Shown: positions 5,919-48,399 of the stretch, piece after piece
Layout of the letters: each line of letters begins with the position of its first letter
How positions within the stretch are numbered: the stretch's first letter is position 1
Origin: Kiritimatiellia bacterium
GTDB taxonomy: Bacteria; Verrucomicrobiota; Kiritimatiellia; WLWN01
Assembly (NCBI GenBank): GCA_012103575.1
Contig: WLWN01000001.1
Location: 387,792-451,791 of the forward strand
Reading direction: 5' to 3'
Length of the DNA: 64,000 nucleotides
Program-made: the position numbers and the translations under genes
Notes under the pieces: generated by a model
Databases searched by the model: none
What the model was told of the DNA's origin: nothing
Seen by the model: only the letters and a program-made list of their open reading frames with translations

Positions 5919-5968
5919 AGGACGCATAATACTTCTGCGGGGATTTTGACTATTAATGAAACGGACAT

Positions 5969-6968
5969 TAGAGCGCTTCACGATTGAGGTATCGCGATGT
6001 AGCACGAAGAAAACCAGCCGATTACCTCGTCGGGAGAAACCTCTTCGAACGCTTGTGTGATCGCTTCAGATAGTTCCTGCTGACTGCGGGCTGCAAGGCT
6101 GCCCAACCGATTCTTTATCTTGCCCCACATTTTTTCAATGGGGTCGGAATCGGGGCTGTAGGGTGGAAGGAATCTTACATGGGCCCCACATGACTCAATG
6201 AGTTCAATGACCTTGGGATTGTGATGGACGCGAAGATTGTCTATGATGACGATGTCTTCAGGTGAAAGAGTCGGGAGAAAAACCCGGCGAATATATTCTC
6301 CAAAAACAGCCGTCTCTGTCGCCCCCTCCCCCTCCATGGCCGCTGTTGTTCCGTCCAGGCGGACTGAAAAAATCAAGGTGGTGGTACACCAATGTCCATG
6401 AGGCGTTTTGGCAAAAAGCCTGTTCCCGCCCAACGCCCGGCCCCGCAGACGAGTCATATTCGTTTTCGCCCCGGATTCATCAATAAAGACAAGGCGACTT
6501 GGATCAAGTTTGGCCACCTCTTGGATCCACTGCTTTCTCAAGAGATTTACATCCGCCCGGTCTTGCTCGCTGGCGTGAAGCGTTTCTTTTATACCGGCAG
6601 CCCAACCGATTCAACGCCCGCTGTACGGCCATGATCGACCCCTTCACGCCGCTCATGTTCTTGAGTTCTTCAAGCGTTGCATCGGGATGTTTGCCCCCCA
6701 GTTGAGCCAACGCCTTGAGCTGCTTTCCGCTGTAGAGGGCCTGACGATGCCCACGCGGTCGGGGAGCGGTCTGTCCGGTTTCGTTGAAACGAGAGAGCCC
6801 ACGCTGAAACGTTCTAAGATCTACACGATAAGAAGATGCGATATCGGCCTGGGAACCTTTGCCCATTTTGTAGGCATCTATCGCACGCCGCCGGATTTCT
6901 GCTGTTGCTATACTCATGTCATGGAGTATAGATCTTCTAGAGAGGCATTTTAATCGTTAAATGCTCTA
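5969..6968 (-). mobile_element. IS630-family element, copy 1 (full length, transposase frameshifted)
   Basis: Ends are imperfect inverted repeats: TAGAGCGCTTCACGATT on the left and TAGAGCATTTAACGATT as the complement of the right, each starting at a TA as expected for the TA target duplication of IS630/Tc1 elements. Length is about 1.0 kb. It sits between gyrA and the chemoreceptor. A second copy, truncated at its transposase 5' side, lies at 39527-40452. Confidence 0.85.
5978..6917 (-). pseudogene. IS630 transposase, frameshifted
   Basis: Two overlapping frames together match the intact transposase at 39536-40423. The N-terminal frame (6504-6917) has the helix-turn-helix MGKGSQADIASSYRVD. 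The C-terminal frame (5978-6541) has the DDE core with FIDESGAKT, DNLRVHHNPK and LPPYSPDSDPIEKMW. Copy 1 has one extra nucleotide near 6587-6600 compared with the intact copy. The usual FNPIE glutamate region reads SDPIE here. The N-terminus MSIATAEIRRRA, lost from the other copy, is preserved. Some IS families use programmed frameshifting, but the single-frame sister copy argues for a mutation. Confidence 0.85.
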
Positions 6969-10934: not shown

Positions 10935-11217
10935 TTTGAGTTGTGTCTCCTTATTGCTTAATGGTTTGGTTTAAGTTTTTTTGTTCAGAAATTTTATATT
11001 CTCAAAAACGGGGCAACCGAACTTATTTCAACGTTAGTGTCAGACTTAGTCACGACTCGTGCAGAGAAGAGCAAAGTCGCAAGGATAAAATGATGATCCA
11101 TCAAAGAGGAAAACCCATCTTCTCAGTAGAAGCGTATACAAAAAACGTCGTTTTTTGATCCCGCAGGCCAAGAATAAGCCTCCAGGGGGGTAACGTTTAG
11201 AGTCTTTTTCAAATAAA

Positions 11218-11380
11218 CCTGGATCCGTCAGTTAAACGCGGTTTTCTGCACGAACCATTTGGGCCAAAAGGAATTATAAAAAAGCCTCGACGCACCCAGC
11301 GGGTGCGCCTGCGTTTTTTTGCAACCTTTTGCCTCTAAAGCATTCGCACAGAAATCCCACGTTTAACTGACGGATCCAGG
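11218..11380. mobile_element. 163-bp MITE, copy 1, with 5-bp target duplication
   Basis: Perfect 21-bp terminal inverted repeats begin CCTGGATCCGTCAGTTAAAC. The direct repeat ATAAA flanks it at 11213-11217 and 11381-11385. There is no transposase. An internal GC hairpin (11291-11307: CGCACCC, loop AGC, GGGTGCG) followed by seven Ts at 11314-11320 looks like an intrinsic terminator on the plus strand. It differs from copy 2 (46036-46198) at three positions. The outer 14 bases equal the right end of the IS1380 element at 34976-36633, so that transposase family probably mobilised it. Confidence 0.9.
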
Positions 11381-11446
11381 ATAAAGGGTGCATTCAAGAA
11401 TTTTTTGCAAGAGGCTGAGGATTATAAAATATTTCGTTTACTATTC

Positions 11447-12448
11447 ATGACTAATCGTATTTTGATAATCGATCCTTCTCCAATTGTGCGTGAAATCCTG
11501 TCGATTGAACTCGGAAAGATAGATTTTATCGATGCGGTAGATGTTGCTCCTGATCTTCATGTGGGGCGAGATCATATTGTTGAAAGCAAGCCGAATTTAG
11601 TGATTATGGATCTGGACCTTTCGGGAGTGGATGGGATCACGTTTCTCCGAACCTTAACACAGTGCTATTCTATACCCGTCATTGTCTTTTCTTCTCAGGT
11701 TGAAGAAGAACATTCCAGGGTTTGGGCCATTTGCCAAGCTGGCGCCGAAGTAATGTATAAGCCATCCTCATCGTATGGGATTATGAAAGTAGTTTTTGCA
11801 TTGGTCGAAAAGATTCGGATGAACATCTGTCCTCATGCTCGGCGATCTTTGCGCCGAAACGTGATTGTGGCTATAGGCGCTTCTACTGGAGGGGCCCAGG
11901 CCATTCAAAAAGTTCTCTCTCGTTTTCCCGCGGATGCGCCACCAACTGTTATAGTGCAACATATGCCTGCTCCTTTTACGACCTCCTTTGCCCAACGCCT
12001 CAACAAATGCTGTAATCTAACTGTTCGAGAAGCACGAAATCACGATGTCGTTGAATCAGGAGTAGCGCTTTTGGCTCCGGGCAACTACCATTTATGCTTA
12101 ACCCCTTCCAGAAGATCCTATATTGTAGAAGTTACCAATGGGGCTAAAGTATATTATCAACGACCTAGTGTAGATGTCTTATTTAATTCCGTAGCTGAAT
12201 GCGCTAGTTCAGATTCCATAGGAGTGCTCTTAACGGGAATGGGAAAGGACGGTGCCCAAGGGATGCTCAGAATGCGTGAAGCAGGGGCCTATACCATTGC
12301 GCAGGATGATCCATCATCTGTCGTGTATGGCATGCCGGGCGAAGCGGCAAAAATAGGTGCTAGTTGCTCCATTTTACCTCTGAAAAGAATAGCTGATGCT
12401 ATATTTGCCGAAGTTAAAAAGAGGAAAGCGACTGAACTGGCAAGGTAA
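11447..12448 (+). CDS. cheB: Chemotaxis protein-glutamate methylesterase CheB
   Basis: About 333 residues from the ATG at 11447 (MTNRILIID); an upstream in-frame TTG at 11405 would give 347. Residues 1-120 form a response-regulator receiver with the phosphoacceptor in VIMDLDLSG and the lysine in MYKPSS. The C-terminal esterase has the catalytic serine in GASTGG (near 143), histidine in VQHMP and aspartate in LLTGMGKDGA. It hydrolyses methyl-glutamates on chemoreceptors. No cheA, cheW or cheR is in the window, but two receptor genes are nearby. No clear Shine-Dalgarno precedes either start. MITE copy 1 ends 66 bp upstream, where it may separate the gene from its promoter or supply a terminator. 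Confidence 0.92.
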   Translation: MTNRILIIDPSPIVREILSIELGKIDFIDAVDVAPDLHVGRDHIVESKPNLVIMDLDLSGVDGITFLRTLTQCYSIPVIVFSSQVEEEHSRVWAICQAGAEVMYKPSSSYGIMKVVFALVEKIRMNICPHARRSLRRNVIVAIGASTGGAQAIQKVLSRFPADAPPTVIVQHMPAPFTTSFAQRLNKCCNLTVREARNHDVVESGVALLAPGNYHLCLTPSRRSYIVEVTNGAKVYYQRPSVDVLFNSVAECASSDSIGVLLTGMGKDGAQGMLRMREAGAYTIAQDDPSSVVYGMPGEAAKIGASCSILPLKRIADAIFAEVKKRKATELAR

Positions 12449-34975: not shown

Positions 34976-36633
34976 CCTGAATCCGTCAGCTATCGCTTCG
35001 GAAGGCGTTTTGGGGCTCAAAAGTTGAAAACTTTTTCCTTGAGATGCTCGCTTTTGGGCGGATTGGGACCGGCAAGTATTACCCTGATGAATTTTTTGAG
35101 CGTACAGGTCAGATTCACTCTGATTTGACCATTTTGGGGCGTAGGCCTCCTTGGGCAGTCGCCTTAGAGTATTGTTAAAGGTGCACGGAGGGCTATGCGA
35201 AGGAATGGGCAATATCTTGTATCACTTCAGACCAGCGACAACGCTTGCCAAAGTGAAGTTCAATTCGTCCGGCGTGGCGGACCAATCGAACCGCGCAATA
35301 AACGATATTTTTGAGAACCGTTTTGATTCGCCAGCGCGGGATGTTGATTTTCTGCGGGGCAAGCCCAGCCCGTTTGATGACCTCTTGGCCAAGACCGCGC
35401 AATAGGTTGAAGGCCACCATGGCGCATAACAGAATAATCTTATTGGCACAGGGTCTCCCCGAAGGCAATCGCTCAACATCAAGATCGCTTTTGAGTTCAC
35501 TATGGTACTGCTCGCTGGGGCCATGTCCATGATAGAGATCTAGCACCGTCTTGGCACGACAAGAGAGGTTCGTCCACCAGGTGTTCACCTCAAGTTTAGG
35601 AACCAGAAGTTTCTGACCATCGATATCGATGGTGCGTTCAATCACTTCGAAGGCCACCGGGACACAAGGGTGGTTTTGGTCACCACCGGGATGGAAATGA
35701 TCGAAAAAGCCTGTGTAAACGTTCTTGCCTTCACGACTGTCTTGTTTGTCTCCAACTCGGCGTGCAAGGGCCAGCATTTGTTCAGGACATTCGCGGCGAG
35801 GATTTCGCTTTACGATAAAATAATGATCCCCAAAAGCGTCGAAGTTATCGGCCGCAGCGTTGCCACTATCAAGCCGAAGCAGACATTTTCCACCCAGGCC
35901 CAGGGTTTGGAGCGTTTCAACGCTGCGGGCAATAAACGCGGTCGTTCCCGACTGACAATGTTGTTTACCGGGTCGAAGTTCGCACTCAAGCATGTGGCCT
36001 TGAGTGCCCACATAGGCAAATATCAGGGCGTAACCATCATGGCCCTTCTAGGTGTAGGAAACGCCTTCTTTTGAAGAGCCTGAATGATCCAAAGGGCTCA
36101 CATCGATATCGACGGGAACAAGATCAAGCCCTTCGACATCTACCTAGCCAAAGGGGCCCGAGGAAAGAAATTCGGTGTTGAGTTTGCGTAGCCCCACATG
36201 GGTTCTAGCTGGGGGCAGGTTGTCGAAACGACGTCGGAACACCGGCTCAGAGGCTACCTTTTTAACTCCCCTTTTTAAGTCCAAAGGCATTCATAAAAAT
36301 CTCATCACCCCGGTACAGGTCGATATCATTGAAATCGGTTCGACCGTTGCAAAGTAAGCCGATCTGGGTAAGGAGGATCTCCCGATCAGAGATCGCATCG
36401 GAGCGGCGTGGTTAAAAATTGGAGGGAAGAATCCGTTGAGCATGATCCTCAAGCAGCAGGCCGCAAAGATGATTTCCGCTTGTGCTGTTGAGTTCGCCCT
36501 TGCCAGTCTTTATTTTATATTGTTTCATATACACACCTGTTGGGGTGGGGTTGTTTGTTTGAATACGGGTATCCTCCCCGCTTTAGCCCAACAGGTAATG
36601 AAAAATCGTCAGATTTTATCTGACGGATCCAGG
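34976..36633 (-). mobile_element. IS1380-family element, full length, inactive
   Basis: 1,658 bp bounded by CCTGAATCCGTCAG (34976) and, at the right end, the complement CCTGGATCCGTCAG (36633). The right terminus also holds a perfect 8-bp-arm hairpin next to the end. The 14-bp right end is identical to the outer ends of the 163-bp MITE. No target duplication is visible (AAGGA left, TTTAA right), so a flank was lost. It cuts off the start of the glycine-rich gene to its right. Confidence 0.85.
35193..36528 (-). pseudogene. IS1380-family transposase, multiply broken
   Basis: It starts MKQYKIKTGKG at 36528 and can be followed as RRSDAISDREILLTQIGL, DIDLYRGDEIFMNAFGLKK, VASEPVFRRRFDNLP, VDIDVSPLDHSGSSKEG and HDGYALIFAYVG, then the long C-terminal frame 35193-36011 (DSGNAAADNFDAFG; GHGPSEQYHSELKSDLDVE; ERLPSG). 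Lesions: TAA in the N-terminal part, a frameshift after GLKK, TAG after SSGPFG and TAG in SYT-stop-KGHDGY. It cannot encode functional transposase, so MITE mobility would need another copy. Confidence 0.85.
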
Positions 36634-39475: not shown

Positions 39476-39526
39476 CAGATCATCGATTTAAATCTCATCC
39501 ATTCGTAACAACTTTTAATTACATAT

Positions 39527-40452
39527 TAGAGCGCTTCACGATTGAGGTGTCGCGATGTAGCACGAAGAAAACCAGCCGATTACGTCGTCGGGAGAAACCT
39601 CTTCGAACGCTTGTGTGATCGCTTCAGATAGTTCCTGCTGACTGCGGGCTGCAAGGCTGCCCAACCGATTCTTTATCTTGCCCCACATTTTTTCAATGGG
39701 GTTGAAATCGGGACTGTAGGGTGGAAGGAATCTTACATGGGCCCCACATGACTCAATGAGTTCAATGACCTTGGGATTGTGATGGACGCGAAGATTGTCC
39801 ATGATGATGATGTCTTCAGGTGAAAGAGTCGGGAGAAAAACCCGGCGAATATATTCTCCAAAAACAGCCGTCTCTGTCGCCCCCTCTACTTCCATGGCCG
39901 CTGTTGTTCCGTCCAGGCGGACCGAAGAAATCAAGGTGGTGGTACACCAATGTCCATAAGGCGTTTTGGCAAAAAGCCTGTTCTCGCCCAACGCCTGGCC
40001 CCGCAGACGAGTCATATTCGTTTTCGCCCCGGATTCATCAATAAAGACAAGGCGACTTGGATCAAGTTTGGCCACCTCTTGGATCCACTGCTTTCTCAAG
40101 AGATTTACATCCGCCTGGTCTTGCTCGCTGGCGTGAAGCGTTTTTTTATACCGGGAGCCCAACCGATTCAACGCCCGCTGTACGGCCATGATCGACCCTT
40201 TCGCGCCGCTCATGTTCTTGAGTTCTTCAAGCGTTGCATCGGGATGTTTGCCCCCCAGTTGAGCCAACGCCTTGAGCTGCTTTCCGCTGTAGAGGGCCTG
40301 ACGATGCCCACGCGGTCGGGGAGCGGTCTGTCCGGTTTCGTTGAAACGAGAGAGCCCACGCTGAAACGTTCTAAGATCTACACGATAAGAAGATGCGATA
40401 TCGGCCTGGGAACCTTTGCCCATTTTGTAGGCATCTATCGCACGCCGCCGGA
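39527..40452 (-). mobile_element. IS630-family element, copy 2 (5' side replaced by MITE half)
   Basis: The left end at TA 39527 matches copy 1. The other end is missing: at about 40452 homology to copy 1 stops inside the first codons of the transposase and half a MITE begins. One terminal repeat is therefore lost and the element should be immobile on its own, although its transposase frame is intact. Confidence 0.82.
39536..40423 (-). CDS. IS630 transposase, intact frame with altered N-terminus
   Basis: 295 residues from the ATG in YKMGKGSQADI. The frame is open well upstream: it reads back through RRRAIDAYK and, without a stop, through the adjoining MITE half (PFGPKGITKKPRR). The helix-turn-helix is near residues 1-30. 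The DDE motifs are VFIDESGAKT near 127, IIIMDNLRVHHNP near 208 and PPYSPDFNPIEKMWG near 242. Compared with copy 1 only MSIATAE is lost. It may be able to act in trans on copy 1, whose two ends are intact. Confidence 0.88.
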   Translation of the reverse strand: MGKGSQADIASSYRVDLRTFQRGLSRFNETGQTAPRPRGHRQALYSGKQLKALAQLGGKHPDATLEELKNMSGAKGSIMAVQRALNRLGSRYKKTLHASEQDQADVNLLRKQWIQEVAKLDPSRLVFIDESGAKTNMTRLRGQALGENRLFAKTPYGHWCTTTLISSVRLDGTTAAMEVEGATETAVFGEYIRRVFLPTLSPEDIIIMDNLRVHHNPKVIELIESCGAHVRFLPPYSPDFNPIEKMWGKIKNRLGSLAARSQQELSEAITQAFEEVSPDDVIGWFSSCYIATPQS

Positions 40453-40529
40453 TGCGTCGAGGCTTTTTTGTAATTCCTTTTGGCCCAAATGGTTCGTGCA
40501 GAAATCCGCGTTTAACTGACGGATCCAGG
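40453..40529. mobile_element. Half MITE (copy 3), fused to IS630
   Basis: About 77 bp on the minus strand: the complement starts CCTGGATCCGTCAGTTAAAC at 40529, runs through the same internal sequence as copies 1 and 2, and stops at GCCTCGACGC just before the terminator-like hairpin. The other half is replaced by IS630 DNA. The IS30a end begins four bases away, so three mobile elements are stacked. Confidence 0.85.
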
Positions 40530-45481: not shown

Positions 45482-47398
45482 ATGTCACATCACTTGACGG
45501 AAATGCTGCTAACCTGTAGTAGGTTGCTGGATCAATACGATATCGATTATGTCGCCACCGGTAAGACCGCCCTGAGTATCCTCCAGAACAAAATACCGCC
45601 CTCTCTATCAAATGTTGTCCTCGTGGCATATCCGGAGCATCCTAACCGTCTAGGTGTTTTTATGCGTACCCTGCGAAACAAGGGATATTCCATCACCACA
45701 TTCAGTGACTCTTGGGACATTCGCAAAGTTGAAGCTGGTTTGTCCATCTACTCACCCTCTGTCCGCCTCAATTTATGCAAGCGGGATGGAACTACATGGA
45801 TCTCATCTGATAGCACGGGCCACTGCCATGATTTCATGAACCCTGAATATCATTTTTTCCAAGGAAGTTTTTTAAAAATAGCAAAAGGAACAGGCTCCTA
45901 CTTTTTATCTCATCGTTTCAAACGATTTTGTGCCGACCGAATCTACTGGCATACGGGCAGGATGTCGAAGTATGCCTATCTTACCCTGTTGGAATTATTC
46001 AAAAGTCTACTCGTAGCCTTTGAAAAAGACAATATCCTGGATCCGTCAGTTAAACGCGGTTTTCTGCACGAACCATTTGGGCCAAAAGGAATTACAAAAA
46101 AGCCTCGACGCACCCAGCGGGTGCGCCTGCGTTTTTTTGCAACCTTTTGCCTCCAAAGCATTCGTACAGAAATCCCACGTTTAACTGACGGATCCAGGAA
46201 TATTACTTACTGGATCGATTACGGCACCCTCCTTGGGGCCATAAGGTATCAAGGTATAATCCCCAGCGACGAGAATATGAATATATCCGTACTTGCTGAG
46301 GACCGAGACAAAGTGTTTGCCTTATCTTCTTTTCTCCAGGAATACGGATATGCAATGCGGTATCGTTGTCAGTCCAAGGAAAACCGTGATTGTATATCCG
46401 TTTTTTCCTCGAGAAGAGGTCGGCTATCTATTAACATGGCCATTCGCATACGGCGAAACAGCCTACTGGTCGACCCATTGAGTGGAAGTTCGGAGAATAA
46501 AGGAAGCCTGCGGAAATTGTCTGTGGCGTTGGCCCTGCGGGATGTCTTTCCGTTGAAGCTCTACCCTTTCTATAACGTGAAGGTATGTGGTCCTCGTCAT
46601 GCACATAGAATACTTAAGCAATATTATGGCGAAACCTATCTGACCCATACCTTGCCGTGGAGGGCATGCCATGCGAGATATATTGGCCAAAATATATTAA
46701 AACGCGGAGGACAGATAGGTCAACCTATTCATGAGTTTTGTCCGGCCCAGGCGCCTCGGTACTACGCTGGAACAGAGGGTTTAGACCACGCATACATCAT
46801 CTCCGCAAAAGACGATGCAAAGCGACGACACCATGTGCAACACATGGTAAAAAACCGGTTGCCACAAGCAAAAATTTTTCTCGCTGTAAATGGGTTAACG
46901 CTTACAGAGAGCAATCTTCAGAGATACATCGCACAAAGATATATGACGAAGGATTTTGACTACAGTTCTTTTTCGTGGAAACGTTTGACCACCGGCCAGG
47001 TCGGTTGTGCCTTGTCCCATATGTGCCTATGGGAACAGCTGATTGATCGACGGACGCCATATATGCTGGTTTTGGAAGATGACGCATTTTTAACAAATGA
47101 TTTTATGACCAAGTATACGACCCTTCTTGATCATCTTCCTGTTGATTTTGATTATATCTCCCTATTTCATCACCCGGAGCAGCTCGATCTATTAAAACAA
47201 AAAAAAGGAATCGCGAGAAGAAACAACTATTTTATCAAGCCCCCTCCCAACCTTTGGGGAACCATGGGATACATTATTTCTTATTATGGAGCGTGTAAAA
47301 TATTGAGCCATGTTAAGCCGCTTTATACTACTATTGACCGCATGATCAGTGACTTGGCGCATCGGCGCCTTATATATGCCTTCGAAAAACGTTATTAG
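45482..47398 (+). CDS. LicD-like / GT25 fusion protein carrying an in-frame MITE
   Basis: 638 residues. About 1-184 are an unrecognised N-terminal region. Residues 185-239 are encoded by MITE copy 2. A LicD-like nucleotidyltransferase region follows (YWIDYGTLLGAIRYQGIIP), in which the usual WDDDID acidic cluster has become SDENMN, so catalysis is doubtful. From about 430 a complete GT25 domain follows: YIISAKDDAKRRHHV, TTGQVGCALSHMCLWEQL and MLVLEDDAFLTNDF. The MITE plus its AATAT duplication adds 168 bp, keeping frame; without it the protein would read EKDNITYWIDYGTLLG. Expressed protein would have a basic 56-residue insert just before the LicD motif. Confidence 0.8.
   Translation: MSHHLTEMLLTCSRLLDQYDIDYVATGKTALSILQNKIPPSLSNVVLVAYPEHPNRLGVFMRTLRNKGYSITTFSDSWDIRKVEAGLSIYSPSVRLNLCKRDGTTWISSDSTGHCHDFMNPEYHFFQGSFLKIAKGTGSYFLSHRFKRFCADRIYWHTGRMSKYAYLTLLELFKSLLVAFEKDNILDPSVKRGFLHEPFGPKGITKKPRRTQRVRLRFFATFCLQSIRTEIPRLTDGSRNITYWIDYGTLLGAIRYQGIIPSDENMNISVLAEDRDKVFALSSFLQEYGYAMRYRCQSKENRDCISVFSSRRGRLSINMAIRIRRNSLLVDPLSGSSENKGSLRKLSVALALRDVFPLKLYPFYNVKVCGPRHAHRILKQYYGETYLTHTLPWRACHARYIGQNILKRGGQIGQPIHEFCPAQAPRYYAGTEGLDHAYIISAKDDAKRRHHVQHMVKNRLPQAKIFLAVNGLTLTESNLQRYIAQRYMTKDFDYSSFSWKRLTTGQVGCALSHMCLWEQLIDRRTPYMLVLEDDAFLTNDFMTKYTTLLDHLPVDFDYISLFHHPEQLDLLKQKKGIARRNNYFIKPPPNLWGTMGYIISYYGACKILSHVKPLYTTIDRMISDLAHRRLIYAFEKRY
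46036..46198. mobile_element. 163-bp MITE, copy 2, inside a coding sequence
   Basis: The same 21-bp terminal repeats as copy 1, with direct repeats AATAT at 46031-46035 and 46199-46203. Three differences from copy 1. One of them turns the TAA of copy 1 (in this reading frame) into CAA, keeping the host frame open. The internal hairpin at 46109-46125 and the seven Ts at 46132-46138 could terminate the host transcript. Confidence 0.93.
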
Positions 47399-47838: not shown

Positions 47839-48399
47839 CCTGAATCCGTCAGCTATCGCTTCGGAAGACGTTTTGGGGCTCAAAAGTTGAAAACTTTTTC
47901 CTTGAGATGCTCGCTTTTGGGCGGATTGGGACCGACAAGTATCACCCTGATGAATTTTTTGAGCGTACAGGTCAGATTCACTCTGATTTGGCCATTTTGG
48001 GGCGTAGGCCTCCTTGGGCAGTCGCCTTAGAGTATTGTTAAAGGTGCACGGAGGGCTATGCGAAGGAATGGGCAATATCTTGTATCACTTCAAACCAGCG
48101 ACAACGCTTGCCAAAGTGAAGTTCAATTCGTCCGGCGTGGCGGACCAATCGAACCGCGCAATAAACGATATTTTTGAGAACCGTTTTGATTCGCCAGCGC
48201 GGGATGTTGATTTTCTGCGGGGCAAGCCCAGCCCGTTTGATGACCTCTTGGCCAAGACCGCGCAATAGGTTGAAGGCCACCATGGCGCATAACAGAATAA
48301 TCTTATTGGCACAGAGTCTCCCCGAAGGCAATCGCTCAACATCAAGATCGCTTTTGAGTTCACTGTGGTACTGCTCGCTGGGGCCATGTCCATGATGGT
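47839..48399 (-). mobile_element. IS1380 element fragment, cut by IS30b copy 2
   Basis: It begins with CCTGAATCCGTCAG at 47839, like the left end at 34976, and continues with a few differences until CATGTCCATGAT, where the IS30b terminus begins. The right two thirds are missing. Because the flank on the other side of IS30b is unrelated, a deletion accompanied or followed the IS30b insertion. Confidence 0.82.
48056..48399 (-). pseudogene. IS1380 transposase, C-terminal third
   Basis: Encodes HGHGPSEQYHSELKSDLDVE through to VIQDIAHSFA, equal to the last 110 residues of the transposase at 35193-36528. The upstream part is replaced by the IS30b end, creating a short chimeric frame starting MLRTFALVLLLY from IS30b sequence. 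Not functional. Confidence 0.82.

Follow-up and report, generated by a model that had tools for sequence, protein, structure and literature searches.

The closest described counterparts of the repeat analyzed here come from both sides of the relationship between small repeats and insertion sequences. The RUP element of Streptococcus pneumoniae has been assigned to IS630-Spn1 on the grounds of shared ends and target duplication (PMC2229807), and SPRITE, also of the pneumococcus, is a small repeat with a hairpin that resembles a Rho-independent terminator (PMC10969869). On the side of the insertion sequences, IS1247, a member of the IS1380 family, is 1,672 bp long, with ends of 16 and 13 bp and 5-bp duplications (PMC3281130).

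We examined a 163-bp MITE and its candidate partner, a resident IS1380-family element, starting from the window (the whole 64,000-nucleotide stretch of DNA analyzed). Like RUP, the MITE is present in about 100 or more short noncoding copies per genome and is tied to an IS family by its ends; however, RUP is 107 bp long, with a TA target and an IS630 partner, whereas this MITE has 5-bp AT-rich targets and is matched with IS1380. It resembles SPRITE and other terminator-bearing MITEs in being a small repeat that carries a terminator-like hairpin, but differs from SPRITE in its sequence, in its partner IS and in having T runs on both strands. The resident IS1380 resembles other members of the family (IS1247, ISPme1, ISEcp1) in its PF13701 transposase, its length of about 1.65 kb, its CCTGAATCC... 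ends and its 5-bp duplication; in contrast to these, it forms a private subgroup of more than 80 copies, none of which was found intact. In the literature searched, of which coverage was partial, no MITE paired with IS1380 is described.

Results

The window holds two complete MITEs and one half copy. MITE copy 1 (11218–11380, forward strand), recognized by inspection of the sequence, is a near-perfect inverted repeat of 163 bp without a transposase gene, bounded by 21-bp terminal inverted repeats (CCTGGATCCGTCAGTTAAACG, 11218–11238 on the forward strand and 11360–11380 on the reverse) and flanked by ATAAA on the left (11213–11217) and on the right (11381–11385). Copy 2 (46036–46198, forward strand) is 98% identical to copy 1 and is flanked by AATAT (46031–46035 and 46199–46203). 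Thus, the clean 5-bp target duplications (TSDs) that the first-pass annotation described at both full copies are exact. The third copy (40454–40529, reverse strand) is a left half that matches the MITE start at about 95% and is joined to a 5′-truncated IS630-like element.

The outermost 14 bases of the MITE, CCTGGATCCGTCAG, lie at both ends of copy 1 (11218–11231, forward; 11367–11380, reverse), at both ends of copy 2 and at the end of the half copy (40529). The same annotation had held that these bases are identical to the right end of the window's 1,658-bp IS1380 element (34976–36633, reverse strand) and differ by one base from its left end, which the sequence bears out: the match at 36620–36633 is exact, and the left ends of both window IS1380 copies (34976 and 47839) are CCTGGATCCGTCAG with one base changed. 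Altogether, we found eight matches with two or fewer mismatches in the window, compared to 0.21 expected from shuffled sequence.

We read 1.26 Mb (about 40%) of the 3.14-Mb genome base by base, as 60 stretches plus the window; many of these stretches were picked around known matches, so that the read set is enriched for such matches, and the assembly is estimated to be 94% complete. The 21-bp MITE end has 347 matches across the whole genome (173 and 174 on the two strands, with up to three mismatches), while the reversed pattern has none in the 3.14 Mb at the same threshold. We counted 91 full MITEs in the 1.26 Mb, of which 83 have a length of exactly 163 bp; scaled up by the number of ends, this corresponds to about 160 full MITEs in the whole genome. 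Nearly all MITE-type 21-mers in the portion read (177/197) lie within full MITEs; the other 20 comprise the window IS1380 end and 19 that belong to partial MITEs, solo ends and copies cut by a stretch boundary. The window belongs to the class Kiritimatiellia, which includes the Kiritimatiellales. The MITE was found in none of 96 other genomes of the class, so there are no between-strain empty sites; the genomes listed in this search are all class-level relatives only.

Several copies have an unusual structure. Solo ends of 17–20 bp followed by unrelated sequence occur at L156:8049, L171:3260, L176:4132 and L188:5094, and each of them breaks close to the inner limit of the part held in common with IS1380. 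Half MITEs broken near the central hairpin (positions 76–88 of 163) occur at L153:3870, L166:4434, L166:19577, L191:8504 and 40529 of the window, and the position of their breaks suggests deletions starting at the hairpin tip. We also noted a palindromic mini-MITE of 104 bp that consists of two right arms (L156:15610-15713), as well as a tandem array of three MITEs, 99% identical, with a period of 266 bp that comprises the MITE and a 103-bp spacer (L182:3959-4653).

The resemblance between MITE and IS1380 is confined to the ends. Terminal identity reaches 17/19 bp at one end of the IS and 15/17 bp at its other end, somewhat longer than the 14 bp first described; outside these outer 17–19 bp we found no match, the interiors being unrelated. 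At position 5, MITE ends carry G (179 of 182) and IS1380 ends A (107 of 110). Typical IS1380 ends, which begin with CCT, read CCTGAATCCGTCAG, and the 82 right ends within two mismatches of the search pattern are nearly all CCTGAATCCGTCAGCTATCG; exact 14-bp identity with the MITE is limited to the window IS1380 copy and a few others with G at position 5. Thus, the identity seen in the window is exact because the IS1380 copy there is atypically G-ended. Conversely, one MITE (L140:17303-17465) bears the exact IS1380 14-mer, with A at position 5, at both of its ends. We rejected a plain internal deletion of the resident IS1380 as the source of the MITE, since only the outer 17–19 bp are common to both; the difference at position 5 and the unrelated interiors together indicate that the MITE is no simple deletion derivative of this IS.

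MITE and IS1380 share an insertion signature. Exact 5-bp TSDs flank 66 of the 91 MITEs and 15 of the 55 IS1380 copies, compared to 1.5 and 0.6, respectively, expected from randomly reassigned flanks; no other TSD length is enriched in either set. The TSDs are rich in A+T in both cases (83% for the MITE, 79% for IS1380); the window IS1380 element has flanks AAGGA and TTTAA, hence no TSD. Furthermore, three pairs of filled and empty sites occur within the genome, with the 5-mer present once in the empty counterpart: a TCCCA site filled by a MITE in L162, and again in L196, is empty in L181; a TGGTA site filled in L015 is empty in L149 and L163; and an AAATA site filled in L186 is empty in L175. 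The element is thus short and noncoding, with perfect 21-bp ends, a hairpin, TSDs and a high copy number, the hallmarks of a MITE.

We considered that the agreement of the ends might be due to chance or convergence, and that the repeats might be REP/BIME-like, or regulatory hairpins maintained by selection, rather than transposable elements. The MITE RNA is predicted to fold as a single long hairpin (−82.5 kcal/mol, z −11.2). T runs follow its central G+C-rich stem (11289–11309 in copy 1) on both strands, and this core scored as terminator-like in both directions in a consensus scan; among old and young copies, the pairs of the central stem show covariation. Moreover, MITE insertions show a clear deficit within open frames of at least 150 aa (32%, compared to 70–72% for random sites). 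These are properties that such repeats could have, but exact TSDs at 66 of 91 copies and three empty sites mean insertion, and the terminal agreement, at both exact ends, far exceeds chance. We therefore give this explanation practically no credence.

The half MITE raises another candidate parent. Here a full MITE end runs straight into the transposase gene of the IS630-like element (39525–40453, reverse strand; 97.8% match to 5967–6896), as if the MITE belonged to a larger IS630-like element spanning 39525–40529. A first look at the genome gave 326 candidate copies of this element, and the 40 that were scored are all at least 97% identical. However, all 39 of the other full-length copies listed (97–98% identical) start at the junction and lack the MITE part; since they match only from the junction, the fusion at 40529 is a single, one-off event, and we rejected the IS630-like element as parent. 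IS630 elements also duplicate the dinucleotide TA, in contrast to the 5-bp TSDs of the MITE. An IS630 parentage thus seems exceedingly improbable.

We examined the resident IS1380 for a transposase that might have acted on the MITE. The window element has at least 40 matches of at least 97% identity in its own genome, mostly full length, and its transposase scores above the cut-off for PF13701 (DDE transposase). The gene itself (35193–36528, reverse strand; copy L031) is broken by stops at codons 39, 124 and 156 and by a 13-bp frameshifting insertion near codon 84, and the second IS1380 copy (47839–48396, reverse strand; 98.7% identity over 558 bp) is truncated by an IS30-like element. The earlier statement that the visible transposases of the window are all broken is thus accurate, and the same state extends to the genome. 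A whole-genome search with PF13701 gave a list of 136 matched stretches, among which there is no full-length frame free of interruptions. In the 1.26 Mb we identified 55 IS1380 elements with paired ends, mostly 1.54–1.66 kb long, and none of these near-full-length copies, read base by base, encodes an intact transposase. The least damaged 3′ part (C1:2939233, L055) has an open frame of 397 aa with a disrupted start region. With no intact copy found, no member of the partner family can be called autonomous today.

The first-pass annotation had reasoned that mobilization needed a functional IS1380 copy either elsewhere or in the past. We found none elsewhere in the genome, and for this reason “in the past” is the better guess. 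Since every readable transposase copy is inactivated, we conclude that the burst of amplification is probably over.

The lesions are widely shared among the 55 copies. The 13-bp insertion near codon 84 is present in 48 and a 104-bp deletion in nine; TAG occurs at codon 124 in 41 copies and at codon 156 in 35, and the two sites are found in every one of the four combinations (27, 14, 8 and 6). Failures of the four-gamete test among site pairs rise from 34% at distances below 50 bp to 69% above 800 bp. The dead copies (L031–L090, L140–L159) look recombined, with mosaic lesions of the kind expected from recombination or gene conversion, unless they reflect an effect of assembly. Stop-codon reassignment or amber suppression is not supported as an account of the shared in-frame TAGs, as TAG is an ordinary stop in this genome, closing 98 of 420 long open frames; in the 40% of the genome read, we detected no suppressor tRNA.

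Other PF13701 transposases provide a reference. Intact transposases of the same subgroup, 60–74% identical, are present in other genomes of the class, among them a 454-aa frame at locus L202 with 74% identity, and these intact relatives mostly have CCTGAATCCGT ends and lengths of about 1.63–1.68 kb, with an exact 5-bp TSD in one. A second, distant PF13701 lineage in the genome (C1:1444247-1445479, L061; 375 bits) was rejected as parent; it has one internal TGA, and the only MITE-type ends are those of a nearby MITE.

Divergence places the two elements together in time. The recent MITEs (81 of the 91) lie 0.98 ± 0.10% from their consensus, and the 55 IS1380 copies 0.85 ± 0.03% from theirs; from this equal divergence, recent MITEs and IS1380 copies amplified in the same period. 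The other ten MITEs have 14–24 of their 163 bases changed, and seven of the ten keep exact TSDs, which points to an earlier wave. Several old MITEs have CCTAGATCCGG-type ends, with the change present at both ends together, and one old IS1380 end (L170:12454) reads CCTGGATCCGGCAG; this is only suggestive of a concerted end change in old MITEs (CCTAGATCCGGCAG) and old IS1380 copies, with one IS end to represent the latter. Members of the old CCTAGATCCGG-type subfamily, with this end on both sides, lie at L174:7857-8019, L159:14001-14163 and L179:10236-10399.

We also considered that a second IS1380-like element with the full 21-bp ends, now lost or unassembled, might have been the mobilizer, with the resident IS1380 as a mere cousin. 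The fixed differences between MITE and IS1380 ends, at position 5 and again from position 15 inward, are in line with such an element, as are the unrelated MITE interior, the lack of an intact resident transposase and an assembly that is only about 94% complete. However, no such element is present in the stretches read, the equal divergence of MITE and IS1380 would have to be a coincidence, and in one MITE both ends have the A at position 5 that is typical of IS1380. We consider a lost mobilizer of this kind quite unlikely.

A transposase of another family that carried all 21 bp of the MITE ends had been named at the outset as the would-be better parent; we looked for one in the 1.26 Mb read and found no transposase-bearing element with these ends. 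Thus, because of the similarity of the ends, the TSD length, the AT-rich targets, the empty sites, the equal age and the lack of a rival element, we conclude that the MITE is very probably a non-autonomous element mobilized in trans by the resident IS1380-family transposase.

Discussion

The comparison of sequences leads us to propose that the IS1380 transposase would bind the MITE ends in trans, and would then cut the MITE out and insert it with a 5-bp AT-rich TSD. The MITE interior, a long hairpin around a terminator-like stem-loop, might either stem from a related, lost IS1380 with an CCTGGATCC...TTAAACG end or represent host DNA that became enclosed by two IS1380-like ends. Mobilization through ends shared with an IS family would be ordinary in kind, as has been proposed for RUP and IS630-Spn1. 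Three features stand out here: the number of copies, a working transposase that has apparently died out, and lesions that form mosaics in the dead copies. It is conceivable, although we consider it rather doubtful, that the IS1380 copies of the genome, all dead, spread to more than 80 places while already bearing the same lesions and form a mutually converting pool, and that the MITE hastened the loss of the last transposase by competition.

The MITE core may also influence transcription of neighboring genes, to judge from its predicted terminator. The ATG of a cheB-like gene (11447–12448, forward strand; start chosen by eye), which encodes a response regulator with a CheB methylesterase (PF01339, 2.2e-61; PF00072, 9.4e-13), lies 66 bp downstream of MITE copy 1.

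In a poorly known lineage, a hairpin repeat with many copies can now be assigned, with high probability, to a mobilizing transposase family. With about 160 MITEs, more than 80 dead partners and datable insertions, this genome provides a compact test case of a non-autonomous element that may have outlived or exhausted its transposase. The terminator-like core, inserted mostly outside genes, as in the case of the copy before cheB, would have testable effects on neighboring transcription.
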